A DNA stretch of 64,000 bases from Lysinibacillus sp. JNUCC-52 (GTDB lineage: Bacteria; Bacillota; Bacilli; Bacillales_A; Planococcaceae), in assembly GCF_015999545.1 (NCBI RefSeq), contig NZ_CP065546.1, forward strand, positions 1,922,001 to 1,986,000, written 5' to 3'. The position numbers and the translations under genes are program-made. Of this stretch, positions 1,064-63,011 are shown one piece after another (position 1 is the first letter of the stretch; each line of letters begins with the position of its first letter). The notes under the pieces were generated by a model. It worked only from the letters and a program-made list of their open reading frames with translations. It made no database searches and had not been told where the DNA came from.

Positions 1064-1488
<425 letters not shown>

Positions 1489-1581: not shown

Positions 1582-1988
1582 TTCCCGCGGAATAAAACAA
1601 TATTTCCGCGAAGTGAAATGTTATTTCCGCGGAACAAATCAGGATTCCCGCGAAGTGAAATGCTTTTTCCGCGGAGCAAATCAGGATTCCCGCGAAGTGA
1701 ACTGTTATTCCCGCGGGACAAATCAGGATTCCCGCGAAGTGAAATGCTTTTTCCGCGGAGCAAATCAGGATTTCCGCGAAGTGAACTGTTATTCCCGCGG
1801 AACAAATCAGGATTCCCGCGAAGTGAAATGTTATTCCCGCGGAACAAATCAGGATTCCCGCGAAGTGAAATGTTATTCCCGCTGAACAAATCAGGATTCC
1901 CGCGAAGTGAAATGTTATTCCCGCGGAACAAATCAGGATTCCCGCGAAGTGAAATGTTATTCCCGCGGAACAAATCAGGATTCCCGCG
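1582..1988. repeat. 21-bp-period tandem array, 20 cores (array 1)
   Basis: A core TTCCCGCG or TTTCCGCG recurs at 1582 + 21k for k = 0 to 19 without any indel; only the copy at 1876 is changed, to GCT. Two half-units alternate, one ending GAACAAATCAGGA and the other AAGTGAAATGTTA (with C/T variants), giving a 42-bp higher-order repeat. Many even-numbered cores form the palindrome TTCCGCGGAA. The array fills most of the gap between the flavoenzyme remnant and the stop of the deacetylase gene. Because 21 is divisible by 3, long spurious frames run through it on both strands; they lack ribosome sites and I do not count them as genes. Confidence 0.97.
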
Positions 1989-2005
1989 AAGCATAGCGGT
2001 TTTTA

Positions 2006-3202
2006 TTATTTATTAAAATTAATCCAAAAAACTTCTTTACTTCCGTCTTGTTTAATCATAATCGCTTTAACGGAATAACCACCCGCTTCATATTTTGCGA
2101 TATTTTCTTCGGTTGACATCACTCTTGTACTCTTATTTGCTGTCACACAGTAACTGCCAAAATCACGTTGAAGCTGGCGCTCTCCATTCACCATTTTATA
2201 AAGCTCGAAACGTGTTTCTTTTGCTTGAAGTGGTCCTTTATTCATATCACTTTTTAACCAAGCTTTGAGTGTCACTTTATTTGAAGTCACTTGAGCCTCG
2301 ACTTGTATATCTCGTTGTCGATATTGTTGCTCTGCAAGTGAATAATTTTTTTCTAAAATCTTTTTTAACTCATGCGCCGACACTCGATTGCTAGAATCGA
2401 TACGTTTAATATGAACGGTTCCTTGTCCAAATAAATTATAGCCACCCTGTGTAGAGTAATCGATCGTGTAACCTGCTTTTTTGATTGCCTGCTCAGCAAT
2501 TCGATCATAAACACCATATGGATATGCAAACGATTTAGGTGCTATCCCTGTATATTTTTCTATTAGCTGATGTGCCTTTGTAACATCCTCTTGAATGTAT
2601 CGAAGACGCTCCTCATTTGTAAGTGGCTCTCCATTTTTTTTCTGATTAAGTATCATTGCCTCGTGTTTTGACTTATCATTGTTCCCTCGCCAATGTAAAT
2701 CATATGTATGATTGCCAATACGCATAATACCAGAATCGGACATTTCCTTTATTTGTTGCCAATTCAACATAGGTACATTTTTTCTGGCACCTGTCTCTAC
2801 ATCATTTGCGATCACAAACAATGTTGCCTGCATGCCCATTTCTTTTAAAATAGGGTATGCCATTTTATAGACACTTTCATAGCCATCATCTATCGTTAAA
2901 AATACTGCTTTCTCAGGAATGCGACCATGCCCTTGTAAATATGCGATTAGCTGCTCCTCCGTAATGGTTGAATAGCCATTGTCCTTTAGCATCTTCAACT
3001 GCTCACGAAATAGCTTTTCTGTAATATTTATATTCGCTATTTCTTTATAATCCCCAAATGAATGATAGTTAATGACCGTAATACCTTTAGCATTACTATA
3101 TTCATAGAATTTTGTTGCTTTTGCTGCCATTGCCTGTTCTGATATTGAGAGAAAGCAGCAAACAAGTACAACAAATAATAATATTTTCCTTATGTATTTC
3201 AT
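2006..3202 (-). CDS. secreted polysaccharide deacetylase (NodB fold)
   Basis: The protein has 398 aa with an N-terminal signal peptide (residues 1-26, ending AMA). The NodB/CE4 domain spans about residues 40-270: motif 1 is LTIDDGYES (usual TFDDG changed to TIDDG), motif 2 is NHTYDLH (metal His pair), motif 3 is FAYPYG. A VINYHSFGD segment precedes it, as in IcaB/YxkH-type enzymes. The C-terminal ~110 residues form an additional, apparently beta-rich domain. It likely de-N-acetylates a cell-wall or exopolysaccharide GlcNAc polymer outside the membrane. It stands alone, with the 21-bp array directly after its stop codon. Confidence 0.88.
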   Translation of the reverse strand: MKYIRKILLFVVLVCCFLSISEQAMAAKATKFYEYSNAKGITVINYHSFGDYKEIANINITEKLFREQLKMLKDNGYSTITEEQLIAYLQGHGRIPEKAVFLTIDDGYESVYKMAYPILKEMGMQATLFVIANDVETGARKNVPMLNWQQIKEMSDSGIMRIGNHTYDLHWRGNNDKSKHEAMILNQKKNGEPLTNEERLRYIQEDVTKAHQLIEKYTGIAPKSFAYPYGVYDRIAEQAIKKAGYTIDYSTQGGYNLFGQGTVHIKRIDSSNRVSAHELKKILEKNYSLAEQQYRQRDIQVEAQVTSNKVTLKAWLKSDMNKGPLQAKETRFELYKMVNGERQLQRDFGSYCVTANKSTRVMSTEENIAKYEAGGYSVKAIMIKQDGSKEVFWINFNK

Positions 3203-3498: not shown

Positions 3499-5565
3499 TT
3501 AGAAAATATTGCGCTGCCAAAAACGTTGCTGAGCAATGGCATCAACAAATTTTTTGGCAAATCCAGCATTTCCAGTTGCTAAAATAATGCCTGGCCCTAC
3601 GTTAGCATTGGACATATTAAAAAATGTTGTGCCTGTTGAGGCAATGCCAATTGGCTTAAAATGTCTGTACGCTTCATTAATATAATTGACAATATAAGTG
3701 TTAAACTTTGCTTGATTGTCAGCTCGAACTCCGACAACATATAAGGAATCAAAAAGCACCGCATCCGTTGTAATAAATGTATCGCTCGCTGTTAACTGCA
3801 CACCATTAGTACCCGTCACCACACCGAGCCTATCAGAAATGATGCTATAGCGAACACCATTCTTTGTTAAATATTTAAGTACTTCTCCCACCTCATTGGC
3901 GTCAAACCCATCCCCTATTAATACTCCCACTTTAAGTGTCTGTGGCAATTTCACAGTATTCGCCTGACTCAATGCAGGTGAGGATATAGTAACGTTTGAT
4001 TGCTCACCTGTAGGTCGATTAACACCAATATTATTGGCAACTATTGTAGCCATCTCTTTATCGACACGGACAAACATATCTACAACTTGCTGACGAACGT
4101 ATTTACTTTTAACCTTCCCTACCTCGAAGCTAAAGGCGTCAATAATATGCTGCTTTTCAGGTGGCGACATACTATTCCAAAATAGTCGAGCTTGTGAGAA
4201 ATGATCATTAAAGGACTTACTTCGAGCTCTTGTAATACGTCCCTCCACCTTTTCTTCATAATGGACAAATCCCCCTTCTTTTGCAGTGGATGTTGAAGGC
4301 GTATTACCTGCAAGCGAGTTTTTATGATAACTAACCTTTCCCGTATTAATCGTTTGTCGACTGAATCCATTTCGTTGGTTATTATGAATCGGGCAAACTG
4401 GCCTATTAATAGGAATCTCAGCAAAATTTGGTCCGCCTAAACGAAGAAGCTGTGTATCGATATATGAAAATAAGCGACCTTGAAGCAGTGGATCATTTGT
4501 AAAATCAATGCCTGGCACAACATTTCCAGGATGAAAAGCGACTTGCTCCGTTTCAGCAAAAACATTATCTACATTGCGATTCAATGTCATTTTTCCAATT
4601 CTTTTAACAGGTACTAGCTCTTCAGGCCATAATTTTGTTGCATCTAAAATATCAAAATCAAATTTAAATTCTTCCTCTGGCTCAATCATCTGGACACCAA
4701 GCTCATACTCTGGAAAATCCCCGATTTCAATTGATTCCCATAAATCTCGTCGTTGAAAATCGGCATCTTTGCCCCCTATAATTTGTGCTTCATCCCAAAC
4801 AAGTGAATGCACACCTAGCACTGGCTTCCAATGAAACTTTACAAATCTCGACCTACCTTTGTCATTTACAAAACGGAACGTATGCACACCAAAGCCTTCC
4901 ATCATCCGAAAACTTCTAGGAATCGTTCGATCAGACATATGCCACATAATCATATGCGCTATTTCTTGATTATTTGCGACAAAATCCCAAAATGTATCAT
5001 GTGCAGAAGCCGCTTGTGGCATATCATTATGAGGCTCAGGTTTTACAGCATGAATTAAATCTGGAAACTTAATAGCATCCTGAATGAAAAACACTGGTAT
5101 ATTGTTACCAACTAAATCATAATTGCCCTCTTCTGTGTAAAATTTTGTTGCAAAGCCGCGTACATCTCGGGCCGTATCCATTGAGCCTAAGCTCCCTACT
5201 ACGGTCGAAAATCTAACAAAAACAGGCGTCTTCTTTCCAGGCTCCTGCAAAAATTTGGCCCTTGTATACTCTTTCATCGATTCATATAGTTCAAACTCTC
5301 CGTGCGCGGCAAATCCTCTAGCATGTACAACACGTTCGGGAATCCGCTCATGATCAAAATGCGTCATTTTTTCCCGAAAATGAAAATCCTCCATAATGGT
5401 TGGTCCACGAACGCCAGCTTTCAATGAATCTTCATCATTGGAAACCTTCAGCCCCTGATTGGTCGTCATCTTTTTCCCATCATTATTGACGCGAAATGCC
5501 TCTAGTTGTTGATCCTTCGCATTCTCAGTCAAATCCTTGCCCTGATTTGATTTAGACTTATCCAC
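3499..5565 (-). CDS. katE: large-subunit catalase (HPII/KatE type)
   Basis: This 688-aa monofunctional heme catalase disproportionates hydrogen peroxide. Residues 1-65 are a hydrophilic extension. The core follows with catalytic His in RVVHARG, distal Asn in GNNIPVFFIQD and proximal heme-ligand Tyr in RLFSYIDTQ. The last ~150 residues form the DJ-1/PfpI-like flavodoxin domain (KVGVLIGDGFDANEV) that defines clade-2 catalases. Length matches B. subtilis KatE (~686 aa). A GGGGATCGCG segment precedes the ATG. It is monocistronic. In Bacillus such genes are general-stress or spore catalases; I could not identify a sigma-B promoter convincingly. Confidence 0.96.
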   Translation of the reverse strand: MDKSKSNQGKDLTENAKDQQLEAFRVNNDGKKMTTNQGLKVSNDEDSLKAGVRGPTIMEDFHFREKMTHFDHERIPERVVHARGFAAHGEFELYESMKEYTRAKFLQEPGKKTPVFVRFSTVVGSLGSMDTARDVRGFATKFYTEEGNYDLVGNNIPVFFIQDAIKFPDLIHAVKPEPHNDMPQAASAHDTFWDFVANNQEIAHMIMWHMSDRTIPRSFRMMEGFGVHTFRFVNDKGRSRFVKFHWKPVLGVHSLVWDEAQIIGGKDADFQRRDLWESIEIGDFPEYELGVQMIEPEEEFKFDFDILDATKLWPEELVPVKRIGKMTLNRNVDNVFAETEQVAFHPGNVVPGIDFTNDPLLQGRLFSYIDTQLLRLGGPNFAEIPINRPVCPIHNNQRNGFSRQTINTGKVSYHKNSLAGNTPSTSTAKEGGFVHYEEKVEGRITRARSKSFNDHFSQARLFWNSMSPPEKQHIIDAFSFEVGKVKSKYVRQQVVDMFVRVDKEMATIVANNIGVNRPTGEQSNVTISSPALSQANTVKLPQTLKVGVLIGDGFDANEVGEVLKYLTKNGVRYSIISDRLGVVTGTNGVQLTASDTFITTDAVLFDSLYVVGVRADNQAKFNTYIVNYINEAYRHFKPIGIASTGTTFFNMSNANVGPGIILATGNAGFAKKFVDAIAQQRFWQRNIF

Positions 5566-22058: not shown

Positions 22059-22631
22059 TTATTTAGCAAAAACTTCAAACACCCCAATTAAAATTAATAA
22101 CCATCCTGAAATTGCTGTCGAGTACATGCCAATATATGTTTTTGAAAGAAGGGCACCAAAATGAATTCCTACGCCGACAGTAATAAAGGAAAAGATTCCA
22201 ATTGAGATAACCGTCCATATAGCTGAAATACCATTCGCTCCAATGGCAATTCCGCCTGCTAAACAGTTTGCCGATAAAACAAAGCCAAGTGTCATTGCCT
22301 CTCTAATTGAAATAATGTAGTTTTTATCTTCATCAAACACTTCAGGATTTTTCGCGATGCCGTTTTTGGAAAGGCGGTTAGAGAATAGCGTATACACCCC
22401 AATCGCACAGAGCAAAAGACTTCCCAAAAGATTGGCTGTGTGTGGAGAAATATACTCTACTACTGTACTACCAGCCGTTACTGCTACGTAAGTGACAATC
22501 ATTGAAATGATGGCAATGACTGCGTTCGATACAATAGGAATCCTCACTCGCTTAACACCATATGCAAGGCCAATCCCTAGATTATCTAAATTGGCAGCTA
22601 TACCAATCAGAATAATGGTTATCCAATGCAT
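22059..22631 (-). CDS. ytaF: sporulation membrane protein YtaF-like (MntP fold)
   Basis: The 190-aa membrane protein has about six helices and the MntP/YtaF internal repeat: AANLDNLGIGLAYGVKR near the N-terminus and ANCLAGGIAIGANG in the second half. The ATG at 22631 is chosen for GGAGGG 5 bases upstream. Homologues are predicted cation exporters; YtaF is annotated as sporulation-related in Bacillus. It stands between the heme operon and the siderophore locus, transcribed alone. Confidence 0.82.
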   Translation of the reverse strand: MHWITIILIGIAANLDNLGIGLAYGVKRVRIPIVSNAVIAIISMIVTYVAVTAGSTVVEYISPHTANLLGSLLLCAIGVYTLFSNRLSKNGIAKNPEVFDEDKNYIISIREAMTLGFVLSANCLAGGIAIGANGISAIWTVISIGIFSFITVGVGIHFGALLSKTYIGMYSTAISGWLLILIGVFEVFAK

Positions 22632-22769
22632 GATTTCCCTCCTGTCCATAACGCTTCGGCATAAATACGTCAAGAAATGCGTTTACCCATTGCTATAATA
22701 TGAGGAGCAAATTTTGTTCAAGTAGGCGTTCATCTGTGATGCAATGTATTCGTTATGGAAAAAGGCTCT

Positions 22770-22882
22770 TTTCCACGGTAATACCTCGGGTTTCCGCGTT
22801 TGTAGCACCTTTTTCCGCGATAATACCTCGGGTTTCCGCGTTTGTAGCACCTTTTTCCGCGATAGCACCTCGGGTTTCCGCG
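22770..22882. repeat. 21-bp-period array, 6 cores (array 3)
   Basis: The core TTTCCGCG (TTTCCACG at the first) recurs at 22770, 22791, 22812, 22833, 22854 and 22875, exactly 21 bp apart. Two half-units alternate: core + ATAATACCTCGGG (or near variants) and core + TTTGTAGCACCTT. Core and period match array 1 although the flanks differ. It lies between ytaF-like and the terminator of the siderophore-binding gene, and the 310-bp gap holds nothing else. Confidence 0.93.
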
Positions 22883-22884
22883 AA

Positions 22885-22942: not shown

Positions 22943-23923
22943 TTATTTAACAAAAAATTCTTTAACTTGGTCTAACATAATATTCGCAGCTAGAATGCCT
23001 CCAGCAGTATTCCAAATGACATCATCCACTTTATGTGCGTTGCCTTTTTGGACAGCAGTTAGGTTTTTCCAAAGTGGATCTTGTGTCCACTCTTGTTCAG
23101 TTGCTAATGCAGTATCATCACCCGTTGGCATGTATGTGAAGTAGAATATAACATCCCCATCCATTTGAGGAATTGCTTCTTTTCCTAAATCAATAGCCAA
23201 TTTCCCTAATTTTGCATTATCTTTAAATAAGTCTGCTTGAGCTGGAACACGTTTAAATCCTAATTCATCAAAAATAACACCAGAGAATGAATCCGTGTAA
23301 TAGATGCGAGATTTATCTGCCATAAAACGTACAAACGAAATTTCTTTATTCGTTTGATCACCCAGTTCTTCTTTTAATGCTTGTAATTTATCTTCGTAGG
23401 CTGTTAATACTTCTTCACCTTTAGCTTCTTGATTTACTGCTTTTGCATATAATTTAAAATTCTCTTTCCAGTCACCACGTAATGTTTCAGAAAAAATTGT
23501 TGGTGCAATCTTGCTAAGTTTCGCATAGTCTTTTTCTTGTCTTAGTTTATTACCAATGATTAAATCGGGCTTTAAAGAAGCAATTTTTTCAATATTAACT
23601 TCATGTTCAACACCAACTACTTCTACACCGTCCATTTGATCTTTAATATGGTCATACCAAGGATCACCTGACCATGATTGAACTGCACCTACAGGCTTAA
23701 TACCTAGAGCTAAAAGTGCTTCTGTACCTTCATTTGTAAGTACAACAATACGTTTTGGCGTATCTTTTACATCAGTTGTCCCCATTGCATGTTCGACACT
23801 ATAGGCATTGCCCTCTTTTGAACTTTCTTCCTTCTCGTTATCTTTCGAATTGCCACACGCTGCAAGAACAAAAATAGCCATAACAGCTAGCAATACTAAT
23901 AACTTTTGAAATGCTTTTTGCAT
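22943..23923 (-). CDS. iron-siderophore ABC binding lipoprotein
   Basis: The product has 326 aa; the ATG at 23923 has GGGGGA 7-8 bases upstream. Lipoprotein signal with lipobox VLAAC, then a class III binding fold (FeuA/YfiY group): TPKRIVVLTNEGTEALLALG, IASLKPDLIIGNK, ISFVRFMADKSRIYY and DVIWNTAGGILAANIMLDQV. It binds ferric siderophore outside the membrane. Divergent from the permease/ATPase operon across a perfect Fur box. YfiY-like schizokinen specificity is possible but not shown. Confidence 0.88.
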   Translation of the reverse strand: MQKAFQKLLVLLAVMAIFVLAACGNSKDNEKEESSKEGNAYSVEHAMGTTDVKDTPKRIVVLTNEGTEALLALGIKPVGAVQSWSGDPWYDHIKDQMDGVEVVGVEHEVNIEKIASLKPDLIIGNKLRQEKDYAKLSKIAPTIFSETLRGDWKENFKLYAKAVNQEAKGEEVLTAYEDKLQALKEELGDQTNKEISFVRFMADKSRIYYTDSFSGVIFDELGFKRVPAQADLFKDNAKLGKLAIDLGKEAIPQMDGDVIFYFTYMPTGDDTALATEQEWTQDPLWKNLTAVQKGNAHKVDDVIWNTAGGILAANIMLDQVKEFFVK

Positions 23924-23960
23924 CTTTTTTTCCCCCATTGTATATGATAAAATTGTTTGG

Positions 23961-55997: not shown

Positions 55998-56192
55998 TTA
56001 GAAAACTGGTAATTAAAATAACGGATTTTCAAAGCCGTGCATCCAAAACATTATCGATAGACGAAAAATCGCATCAATAGTCTCAGCAATAAAACAACGC
56101 ATCACTCGCATCATTAGTAAAAGAGATGCTTAATATTAAAACTACTAATGGCACATAAACTACATGCTGATAGCAATAAAGACCTAAAATAA

Positions 56193-56236
56193 AAGAGACG
56201 CCTCTATCCTCGACAGATAGAGACGCCTCTTTTTCA
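56193..56236. terminator. GC-rich hairpin in the 600-bp gap before pepF
   Basis: AGAGACGCCTCTATC pairs with GATAGAGACGCCTCT with two mismatches, followed by TTTTT on the plus strand and TTTTATTTT on the minus strand. A 24-residue frame (56254-56328) begins just downstream. The rest of 55928-56525 is AT-rich with no supported gene. Confidence 0.55.
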
Positions 56237-56487
56237 CAAAGGGGATGGGAGAAATGTTCACGTTCAAACAAAGGGGTGTATGTTTGTTTTGTGATTTATT
56301 TCACAAGATTCACTTTATCATGGAATAATAAATTAAGCAATGTATCCTGCTTTAGATTCACAAATTTGTCATATAGAAAGCGATTACAATAGAGTATTTT
56401 TACAAGATGGTACCTTTTTTTCATTTGTAAATCAAAGAAAATCATTATTAATTATTTTTTCTAAAATGTCCTTTTCTAATTAGCAGA

Positions 56488-61673: not shown

Positions 61674-61734
61674 GTGGTGCAATAAGAAAAGCGCATTTGC
61701 GCTAAACATCTACATTTATAATGTAGTTAAAAAC

Positions 61735-63011
<1,277 letters not shown>

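Follow-up and report, generated by a model that had tools for sequence, protein, structure and literature searches.

The window analyzed here, a stretch of 64,000 nucleotides from Lysinibacillus sp. JNUCC-52 with a G+C content of 37.5%, contains two arrays of short direct repeats, designated A1 and A2, together with the genes that flank them (Table 1). On the minus strand, the order at the first array is deacetylase gene, A1, dihydrolipoyl dehydrogenase (lpd) remnant, and the stop codon of the deacetylase gene is 14 bp away from A1. The first 67 residues of the remnant fit the dihydrolipoyl dehydrogenase family, and two other genomes of the genus (G017 and G022) carry a much longer similar gene at this place. 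At the second array, an inverted repeat that the terminator scan did not find was noted by eye between A2 and the substrate-binding protein gene. An array orthologous to A2 is present in G029. Scans found no terminator-like site at A1, A2, or the G029 array, and no promoter-like site at A1. No Rfam 15 match reaching the gathering score was obtained at the arrays; the T-box leader and the RsaE RNA that Rfam gave for the window both lie away from the arrays.

Table 1. Features of the analyzed window (position 1 is the first nucleotide of the stretch).
Feature	Position	Strand	Description
Dihydrolipoyl dehydrogenase gene remnant, downstream of A1	1064..1482	-	two short frames
Array A1	1582..1991	+	20 cores WTYCCGCGRA, exact 21-bp step, two alternating spacer types (42-bp dimer)
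Polysaccharide deacetylase gene	2006..3202	-	PF01522; PgaB/IcaB-like, below curated NCBIfam cut-offs
Large catalase gene, beside the deacetylase gene	3499..5565	-	close to HPII, just under curated cut-off
YtaF/Mntp-like gene, other flank of A2	22059..22673	-	
Array A2	22769..22884	+	five TTTCCGCG cores and one decayed core, 21-bp step, 42-bp dimers, spacers unlike those of A1
Substrate-binding protein gene, A2 at its 3' side	22943..23938	-	PF01497
RsaE/RoxS small RNA	56192..56304	-	
T-box leader	61727..61958	+	

In A1, TTYCCGCG was found at 19 of the 20 positions 1582 + 21k, with TTCCCGCT at position 1876. Tandem Repeats Finder reported the array at a period of 42 (1581-1991, 9.8 copies, 91% matches, 0% indels, score 689) and also scored it at a period of 21 (1581-1988). 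Two types of 13-bp spacer take turns between the cores, namely a GAACAAATCAGGA-type (n = 10, the first one divergent) and a AAGTGAAATGTTA-type (n = 9), and the hexamers alternate as well, between CCGCGG (n = 9) and CCGCGA (n = 10). A preliminary description of this DNA had reported a 21-bp step without an indel and alternating half-units within a 42-bp super-repeat, and both were confirmed by these data. Its statement that many cores are the palindrome TTCCGCGGAA was not borne out, as a single A1 core, at position 1625, has this form. When up to one mismatch was allowed, 23 core matches were obtained in the window, 20 of them in A1 and 1 in A2, showing that solitary cores are rare. The further claim, that the phase is better conserved than the sequence, has little backing from A1 alone because spacers two units apart are 90% alike (likeness of 0.90, compared with 0.46 one unit apart); it was supported once other arrays and other species were added, as detailed below. 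Selection on spacing and very recent expansion had been offered as alternatives. Core and spacing do appear to be constrained, and the 42-bp dimers of A1 look recently and locally expanded; A1 itself has also lengthened through 42-bp duplication.

A1 contains open frames on both strands (148, 132, and 90 aa), and the 148-aa frame scored over the Pfam cut-off for PAH, yet no single stretch of it passes. At the level of the family, a coding repeat was rejected because steps of 19, 20, 40, and 41 bp break the frames in sister arrays, including the orthologous array of G029 (20 bp); moreover, no 3-periodicity was seen in the mismatch profile.

Orthologs of the deacetylase gene were found in 9 of 32 genus genomes (E≤1e-60). 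A 21-bp array lies behind the gene in five of these (JNUCC-52, G029, G017, G020, and G022) and is absent from four (G011, G006, G016, and G010). By eye, an inverted repeat followed by T's stands after the deacetylase stop codon in place of the array in G011, G006, and G016, and in G029 an inverted repeat with T's lies beyond the array, where a scan with loops of 3-8 lists none. Among the five species that carry an array at this deacetylase-array-lpd locus, the core is kept and the spacers are largely different between the array-bearing groups.

A1 is not the only array of its kind in this chromosome. CCGCG-N16-CCGCG occurs 121 times in forward and 106 times in reverse orientation in the JNUCC-52 genome (227 in total), compared with 0 and 1 for the reversed control, and the 21-bp spacing is therefore not due to chance. 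At least 15 loci have five or more cores in perfect step. With dif at 433 kb, the replication origin should lie near 2.77 Mb. A relation to origin and terminus, for which a plot of positions had been proposed, was not supported: no replication polarity of the arrays was seen, both orientations occurring on one replichore, and the longest interval free of arrays (1.09 Mb, starting at 2.35 Mb) is expected of 15 random points (P = 0.35). Gene orientation was counted in 14 JNUCC-52 stretches holding 15 arrays, 14 of which were scored; genes were taken as ORFs of at least 90 aa, so that small genes may be missed, and ORFs running through arrays were dropped. Gaps with arrays (n = 14) were co-directional in 9 cases, convergent in 5, and divergent in 0, whereas gaps without arrays (n = 47) were co-directional in 30, convergent in 5, and divergent in 12. 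Arrays were accordingly less frequent in divergent gaps (0/14 vs 12/47, p = 0.05) and more frequent in convergent gaps (5/14 vs 5/47, p = 0.04). For the nine arrays between co-directional genes, the orientation of the cores agrees with that of the genes in 3 and opposes it in 6. The array at 2071 kb sits past a terminator-like site of one neighbour gene (one such site was found there by scan), which argues for a DNA rather than an RNA role at that locus.

The search of related genomes that the preliminary description had proposed was then extended to other taxa. A three-core pattern matched 27 of 101 genomes, JNUCC-52 included; the matches comprised 19 of the 31 other genus genomes (one with a single match) and 7 genomes outside the genus, with 1-6 hits each. 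The reversed control gave 6 and 2 hits in two genus members. No match to the pattern was present in 12 of the 31 other genus genomes, and the arrays are therefore dispensable. In a draw of 398 genomes from the class, 50 matched, in 29 of 145 genera; as an accidental control, a 20+21 bp spacing gave three hits in 2 of the 398 genomes (compared with 50 of 398 for 21+21). Many of the matches in the class draw are single ones in genomes where the control fires too, and are probably chance. Counts well over a control of 0 or 1 were obtained in family f33 (28 in G150 and 15 in G300), f57 (15 in G386), f59 (8 in G430), f55 (25 in G361), and f46 (6 in G265), as well as in the family to which JNUCC-52 belongs (G339, 13; G365, 26; G373, 13; G390, 7; G252, 6; G296, 10; G050, 6). 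In G330, the control (25 hits) exceeded the pattern (15 hits). Array DNA was inspected for G150, G300, G386, G430, G373, and G361, and the other genomes were judged by listings or counts. The f33 arrays mostly have 4-6 units of AATTCCGCGAAA, with a spacer that differs from unit to unit. The core reads AATCCCGCGAAA in f57 and TAATCCCGCGARTTT in f59, with the 21-bp step of the genus, and other flanks were found in G373 (TTTATCCGCG) and G361 (CTATGCGCGG). Given that the flanks differ in other taxa, a single protein for all arrays is doubtful.

Several further repeats were noted in these surveys. A number of f33 arrays end, by eye, in AACTGGAAA-like letters that open an inverted repeat containing A and T runs, and this end element is common to different loci (L247, 2738-2812; array ends in L241, L249, and L250). 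In G361, one array (L260, 4329-5091) has 41 CGCG with the core CTATGCGCGG, and 22-bp steps follow units reading CGCGCG. A second widespread 21-bp array family, TGTCATTYCCGCG-N8, accounts for 20 of the 118 loci among the matches listed, in records of several phyla (L093, L100, L105, L119, L131, L133, and L134 included); it has the same architecture and a different core, and the word was also found in the viral contig L261. In one Neisseriaceae MAG with this second family, the spacers differ between arrays on different contigs, and two arrays share one. Other repeat families and many high-GC matches were also given by the scan of genome contigs, among the matches listed. The reversed control GCGCC at 21 bp had 12 hits in G036 and 25 in G330, where 21-bp arrays with other cores may be present.

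To separate core and spacer change, 49 genus sources were reduced to 38 distinct arrays, each having three or more gaps of 21 bp, while duplicates and arrays with fewer such gaps were dropped. The oriented consensus of the genus arrays was AATWYC-CGCG-RAA. In 37 runs of at least 6 cores, each unit was compared with the majority of the units of the same parity. Mismatch was 17/1200 (1.4%) within CGCG, a value that is partly by construction because the arrays were found through CGCG, compared with 5.7% at positions -6 to -1, 10% at +4 to +6, and 22.8% at +7 to +14. At positions -4, -3, and -1, which were unused in array finding although the flanks helped to orient the arrays, mismatch was 1-2.3%. 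Orthologous arrays were also compared, using five array pairs (three in f33 and two in the genus) with 26 ungapped units and the core defined as -4 to +5; unit-by-unit alignment failed for a sixth pair (1157 kb), which was excluded. Differing sites amounted to 15/260 in the core and 79/286 in the spacer (p = 2.7e-12), and to 11/156 in the core when CGCG was removed (p = 6.8e-8), p-values that are indicative since units are not independent. Pair by pair, core and spacer differed at 6/60 vs 14/66 (f33 pair A, in which the contrast is weak), 1/60 vs 10/66, 1/40 vs 14/44, 3/40 vs 12/44, and 4/60 vs 29/66 sites. Change in the spacer exceeds that in the core by a factor of about 5 to 16.

The retention of the step was measured in 21 sources, comprising 20 stretches from three genomes (JNUCC-52 included) plus the initial 30 kb of the window, in which 23 clusters of at least four CGCG yielded 312 gaps. 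A length of 21 bp was found for 244 of these gaps, and the others measured 19 bp (18), 20 bp (6), 40 bp (4), 41 bp (4), or 42 bp (15) or were scattered, with none at 22 bp. One cluster (L210, 919-1002), located within an ORF, does not form a regular array. When only gaps between adjacent spacers no more than 45% alike were considered, the 21-bp step was retained in 195 of 216 genus cases, a count of gaps of 15-28 bp (longer ones being left out) over overlapping triplets, so that inner gaps are counted twice. The same test gave 41/44 in f33, where the remaining three are at array ends, and 28/28 in f57, 2/2 in f59, 8/8 in g8, and 18/24 in f55, a family that shows 22-bp steps. Two f57 loci (L251 and L252) have gaps of 41 and 61 bp, i.e., 1 bp less than two units and 2 bp less than three. 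Indels that break the phase, named in the preliminary description as evidence against its reading, were thus partly encountered, both in these f57 arrays and in the 19- and 20-bp gaps of the genus sample. The 21-bp step is strongly preferred, not absolute. Alternation of units was also evident beyond A1: position +4 alternates between G and A, with 114 differing neighbours compared with 92 expected from shuffles of unit order (z = 3.8), and an excess over shuffles was likewise found at -6, +6, and +7 (z of 4.5, 3.8, and 4.1). The alternation is pronounced in A1, and arrays such as L046 and L050 lack it; two-unit expansion is the best reading of it.

Taken together, these comparisons give about an even chance that A1 is a phased site array for a candidate sequence-specific DNA-binding protein of the nucleoid type. 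A1 would belong to a family of arrays of intergenic binding sites spread over the genome, in which each 21-bp unit would consist of one mostly asymmetric site of ~12 bp, AATWYCCGCGRAA, and a freely changing spacer of 8-9 bp. The two-turn step would set every site on the same face of the DNA, where the candidate protein, probably nucleoid-associated, could bind neighbouring sites cooperatively; the resulting patch, stiff or bridged, would lie between genes and in many cases at their ends. Growth and turnover of the arrays may proceed through duplication of single units or pairs of units, which would leave alternating half-units. That a protein causes the constraint, binds cooperatively, and has an architectural role is what we infer from the sequence comparisons. 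If a protein reads ~12 bp every two turns, the core should be constrained, the step preferred, and the spacers free, and the arrays should recur in several families; the array past its neighbour's terminator-like site at 2071 kb would also be explained. Such a protein is the simplest account. More tentatively, CCGCGR at a two-turn step may be the target of a candidate widely conserved chromosome-architecture protein of Bacilli, and the constant-length "satellites" of bacteria may be phased operator arrays, with the helical repeat fixing their length and the spacers free to drift. If a protein reading CCGCGR is found, a class of chromosomal repeats would be explained and a new handle on nucleoid organization in Bacilli obtained, and a constrained core common to several families makes the constant satellite length, described until now as an enigma lacking conserved sequence, a testable question.

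The main functional rival of the binding-protein reading is that the arrays buffer supercoiling as preferred wrapping sites of DNA gyrase or a similar wrapping protein, as for BIME-2 of E. coli, with GC-rich and AT-rich blocks alternating each 10.5 bp so as to favour wrapping; we consider this rather unlikely. According to the sections of PMC6379681 considered here, the gyrase motif of E. coli shows a phased 10-bp variation of G/C, and an enrichment of gyrase sites is seen downstream of operons with high transcription. A 10.5-bp harmonic of G+C dominates 35 of 38 arrays (18 of 21 non-redundant ones) and the pooled units of five other taxa, and the avoidance of divergent and preference for convergent gaps in JNUCC-52 points the same way. 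However, 3 of 11 f33 arrays lie in divergent gaps (two of these being orthologous), the G+C of f33 spacers is close to that of the fetched stretches, and gyrase would need no nearly invariant CCGCG. Shuffling the middle of the spacer left the harmonic unchanged in the genus (1120/2000) and also in f55 (268/2000); it did alter it in f33 and f59 (0/2000 each), f57 (28/2000), and G373 (26/2000), in all four of which the shuffled block includes conserved flank bases. The phased 10.5-bp composition is real as a description and is not decisive. Static curvature, calculated from wedge parameters, was clearly stronger than in spacer shuffles for 3 of 24 arrays (z below -2); as a general property it was not supported (mean z -0.52 over the 24 arrays), and A1 itself gave z +0.95, so that the bending reading of the preliminary description found no support as far as static bending is concerned. 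A neutral origin, in which replication slippage multiplies short seeds and the core is a seed without function, would fit the 90% likeness of A1 units two steps apart, the variation of copy number between species at one locus, and the 12 array-free genomes among the 31. Yet decay should then strike core and spacer equally, which is not what the mismatch data show, and the same core is met again in further families and at loci that are unrelated to one another. This reading is thereby weakened, although it may still hold for A1 taken alone, and we regard it overall as unlikely.

Neighbouring cores are able to pair (stem CGCGG/CCGCG across one spacer), so transcribed hairpins serving as terminators, RNA stabilizers, or small RNAs can also be imagined. 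The array of G029 may be transcribed, given the inverted repeat and T's noted past it by eye and absent from the scan, and the 52-nt repeats of B. coagulans are transcribed, as stated in the consulted sections of PMC8625621. Predicted folds were no stabler than spacer-shuffled ones, however (mean z +0.32 over 98 folds from 49 runs, with 2 values below -2 and 3 above 2), and no compensatory change was seen at positions (-1,+4), where C-G was counted 176 times, C-A 152, T-G 87, T-A 2, and others 22; the C-A and T-G units may be one site read on opposite strands. Moreover, arrays occur in both orientations relative to genes, and one lies past its neighbour's terminator-like site. An RNA element is accordingly very unlikely. 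One core with array-specific spacers at many loci would also be expected if a core-recognizing enzyme spread the arrays, and their geometry resembles that of plasmid iterons, direct repeats of about two turns, so that the arrays might be decoys of a replication initiator; we judge a mobile or iteron-like nature to be quite improbable. No support was obtained for the RAYT transposase as the agent: PF01797, the one gene family tested for co-distribution, occurs in 21 of the 32 genus genomes without following the arrays. It is missing from seven array-bearing genomes (G015, G014, G026, G019, G028, G024, and G003), and eight genomes without arrays carry it (G011, G027, G004, G016, G030, G005, G001, and G010). 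Furthermore, A1 had no plasmid match, the sole match in a viral contig belongs to another repeat family, and the four named neighbours of A1 and A2 include no replication gene.

Among known systems, the BIME-2/REP elements of E. coli are likewise intergenic, tandem, and GC-rich, and the JNUCC-52 arrays are likewise near gene ends. REP are palindromes that alternate in orientation within BIMEs, whereas in A1 and the other arrays inspected the repeats are direct, all point the same way, and have a mostly asymmetric core, and the presence of PF01797 does not follow the arrays. The make-up of a CRISPR array does not fit: CRISPR repeats have about 23 nt or more and unique long spacers, compared with a core of ~12 bp, 8-9 free bases, and spacers that are repeated within A1. 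Plasmid iterons, which are bound on one face, share direct repeats of about two helical turns; unlike them, the arrays occupy many chromosomal loci, and none of the four neighbours named for A1 and A2 is an initiator gene. The Noc binding site, ATTTCCCGGGAAAT, is not known to occur near the terminus. It shares TTCC..GGAA arms and a chromosome-wide spread with the arrays, but the centre here is CCGCGR rather than CCCGGG, the sites stand in arrays, and arrays at 57 and 683 kb lie within 0.4 Mb of dif, which speaks against Noc sites. STAR elements of Staphylococcus are short GC-rich direct repeats in AT-rich intergenic DNA, which is similar, and have a different core and spacing.

The closest kin are the tandem repeats of Bacillus with a constant unit of 20-21 nt described by Subirana and Messeguer in 2021 (PMC8161180); in the sections of that paper considered here, the two-turn length is noted and a nucleoid protein or small RNAs are proposed. 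Like those repeats, the present ones have a constant 21-nt unit, several families per genome, and a short signal common to every repeat in most arrays of a species, and are generally non-coding. A1 consists of 20 units, all of 21 bp, where the definition asks for 20-21 nt, at least 4 repeats, and at least 60% of one length ±1; JNUCC-52 arrays differ in spacer consensus, CCGCGR is the characteristic signal, and frames break in sister arrays. Table 2 of PMC8161180 lists the signal TCGCGG in 21-nt repeats of B. weihaiensis (Metabacillus harenarius, Bacillaceae, in the taxonomy used here), which is the reverse complement of CCGCGA, i.e., the A1 core on the other strand. The kind is thus already known, and the core is already in print once. 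In the same sections of PMC8161180, partial conservation from strain to strain is shown for the 52-nt class, and no published account of such arrays in Lysinibacillus was found in the literature searched, PMC6749651 included and supplementary tables aside. Unlike the repeats of PMC8161180, there described as species-specific and without sequence conservation except between B. simplex and B. muralis, those analyzed here share one core across the genus and several families; core and spacer evolution, not separated in the sections considered, were separated here. Compared with the literature examined, what is new is that the same core occurs in the genus and in several families of Bacilli, that core and spacer evolve separately, and that the step is mostly kept after the spacers have diverged.
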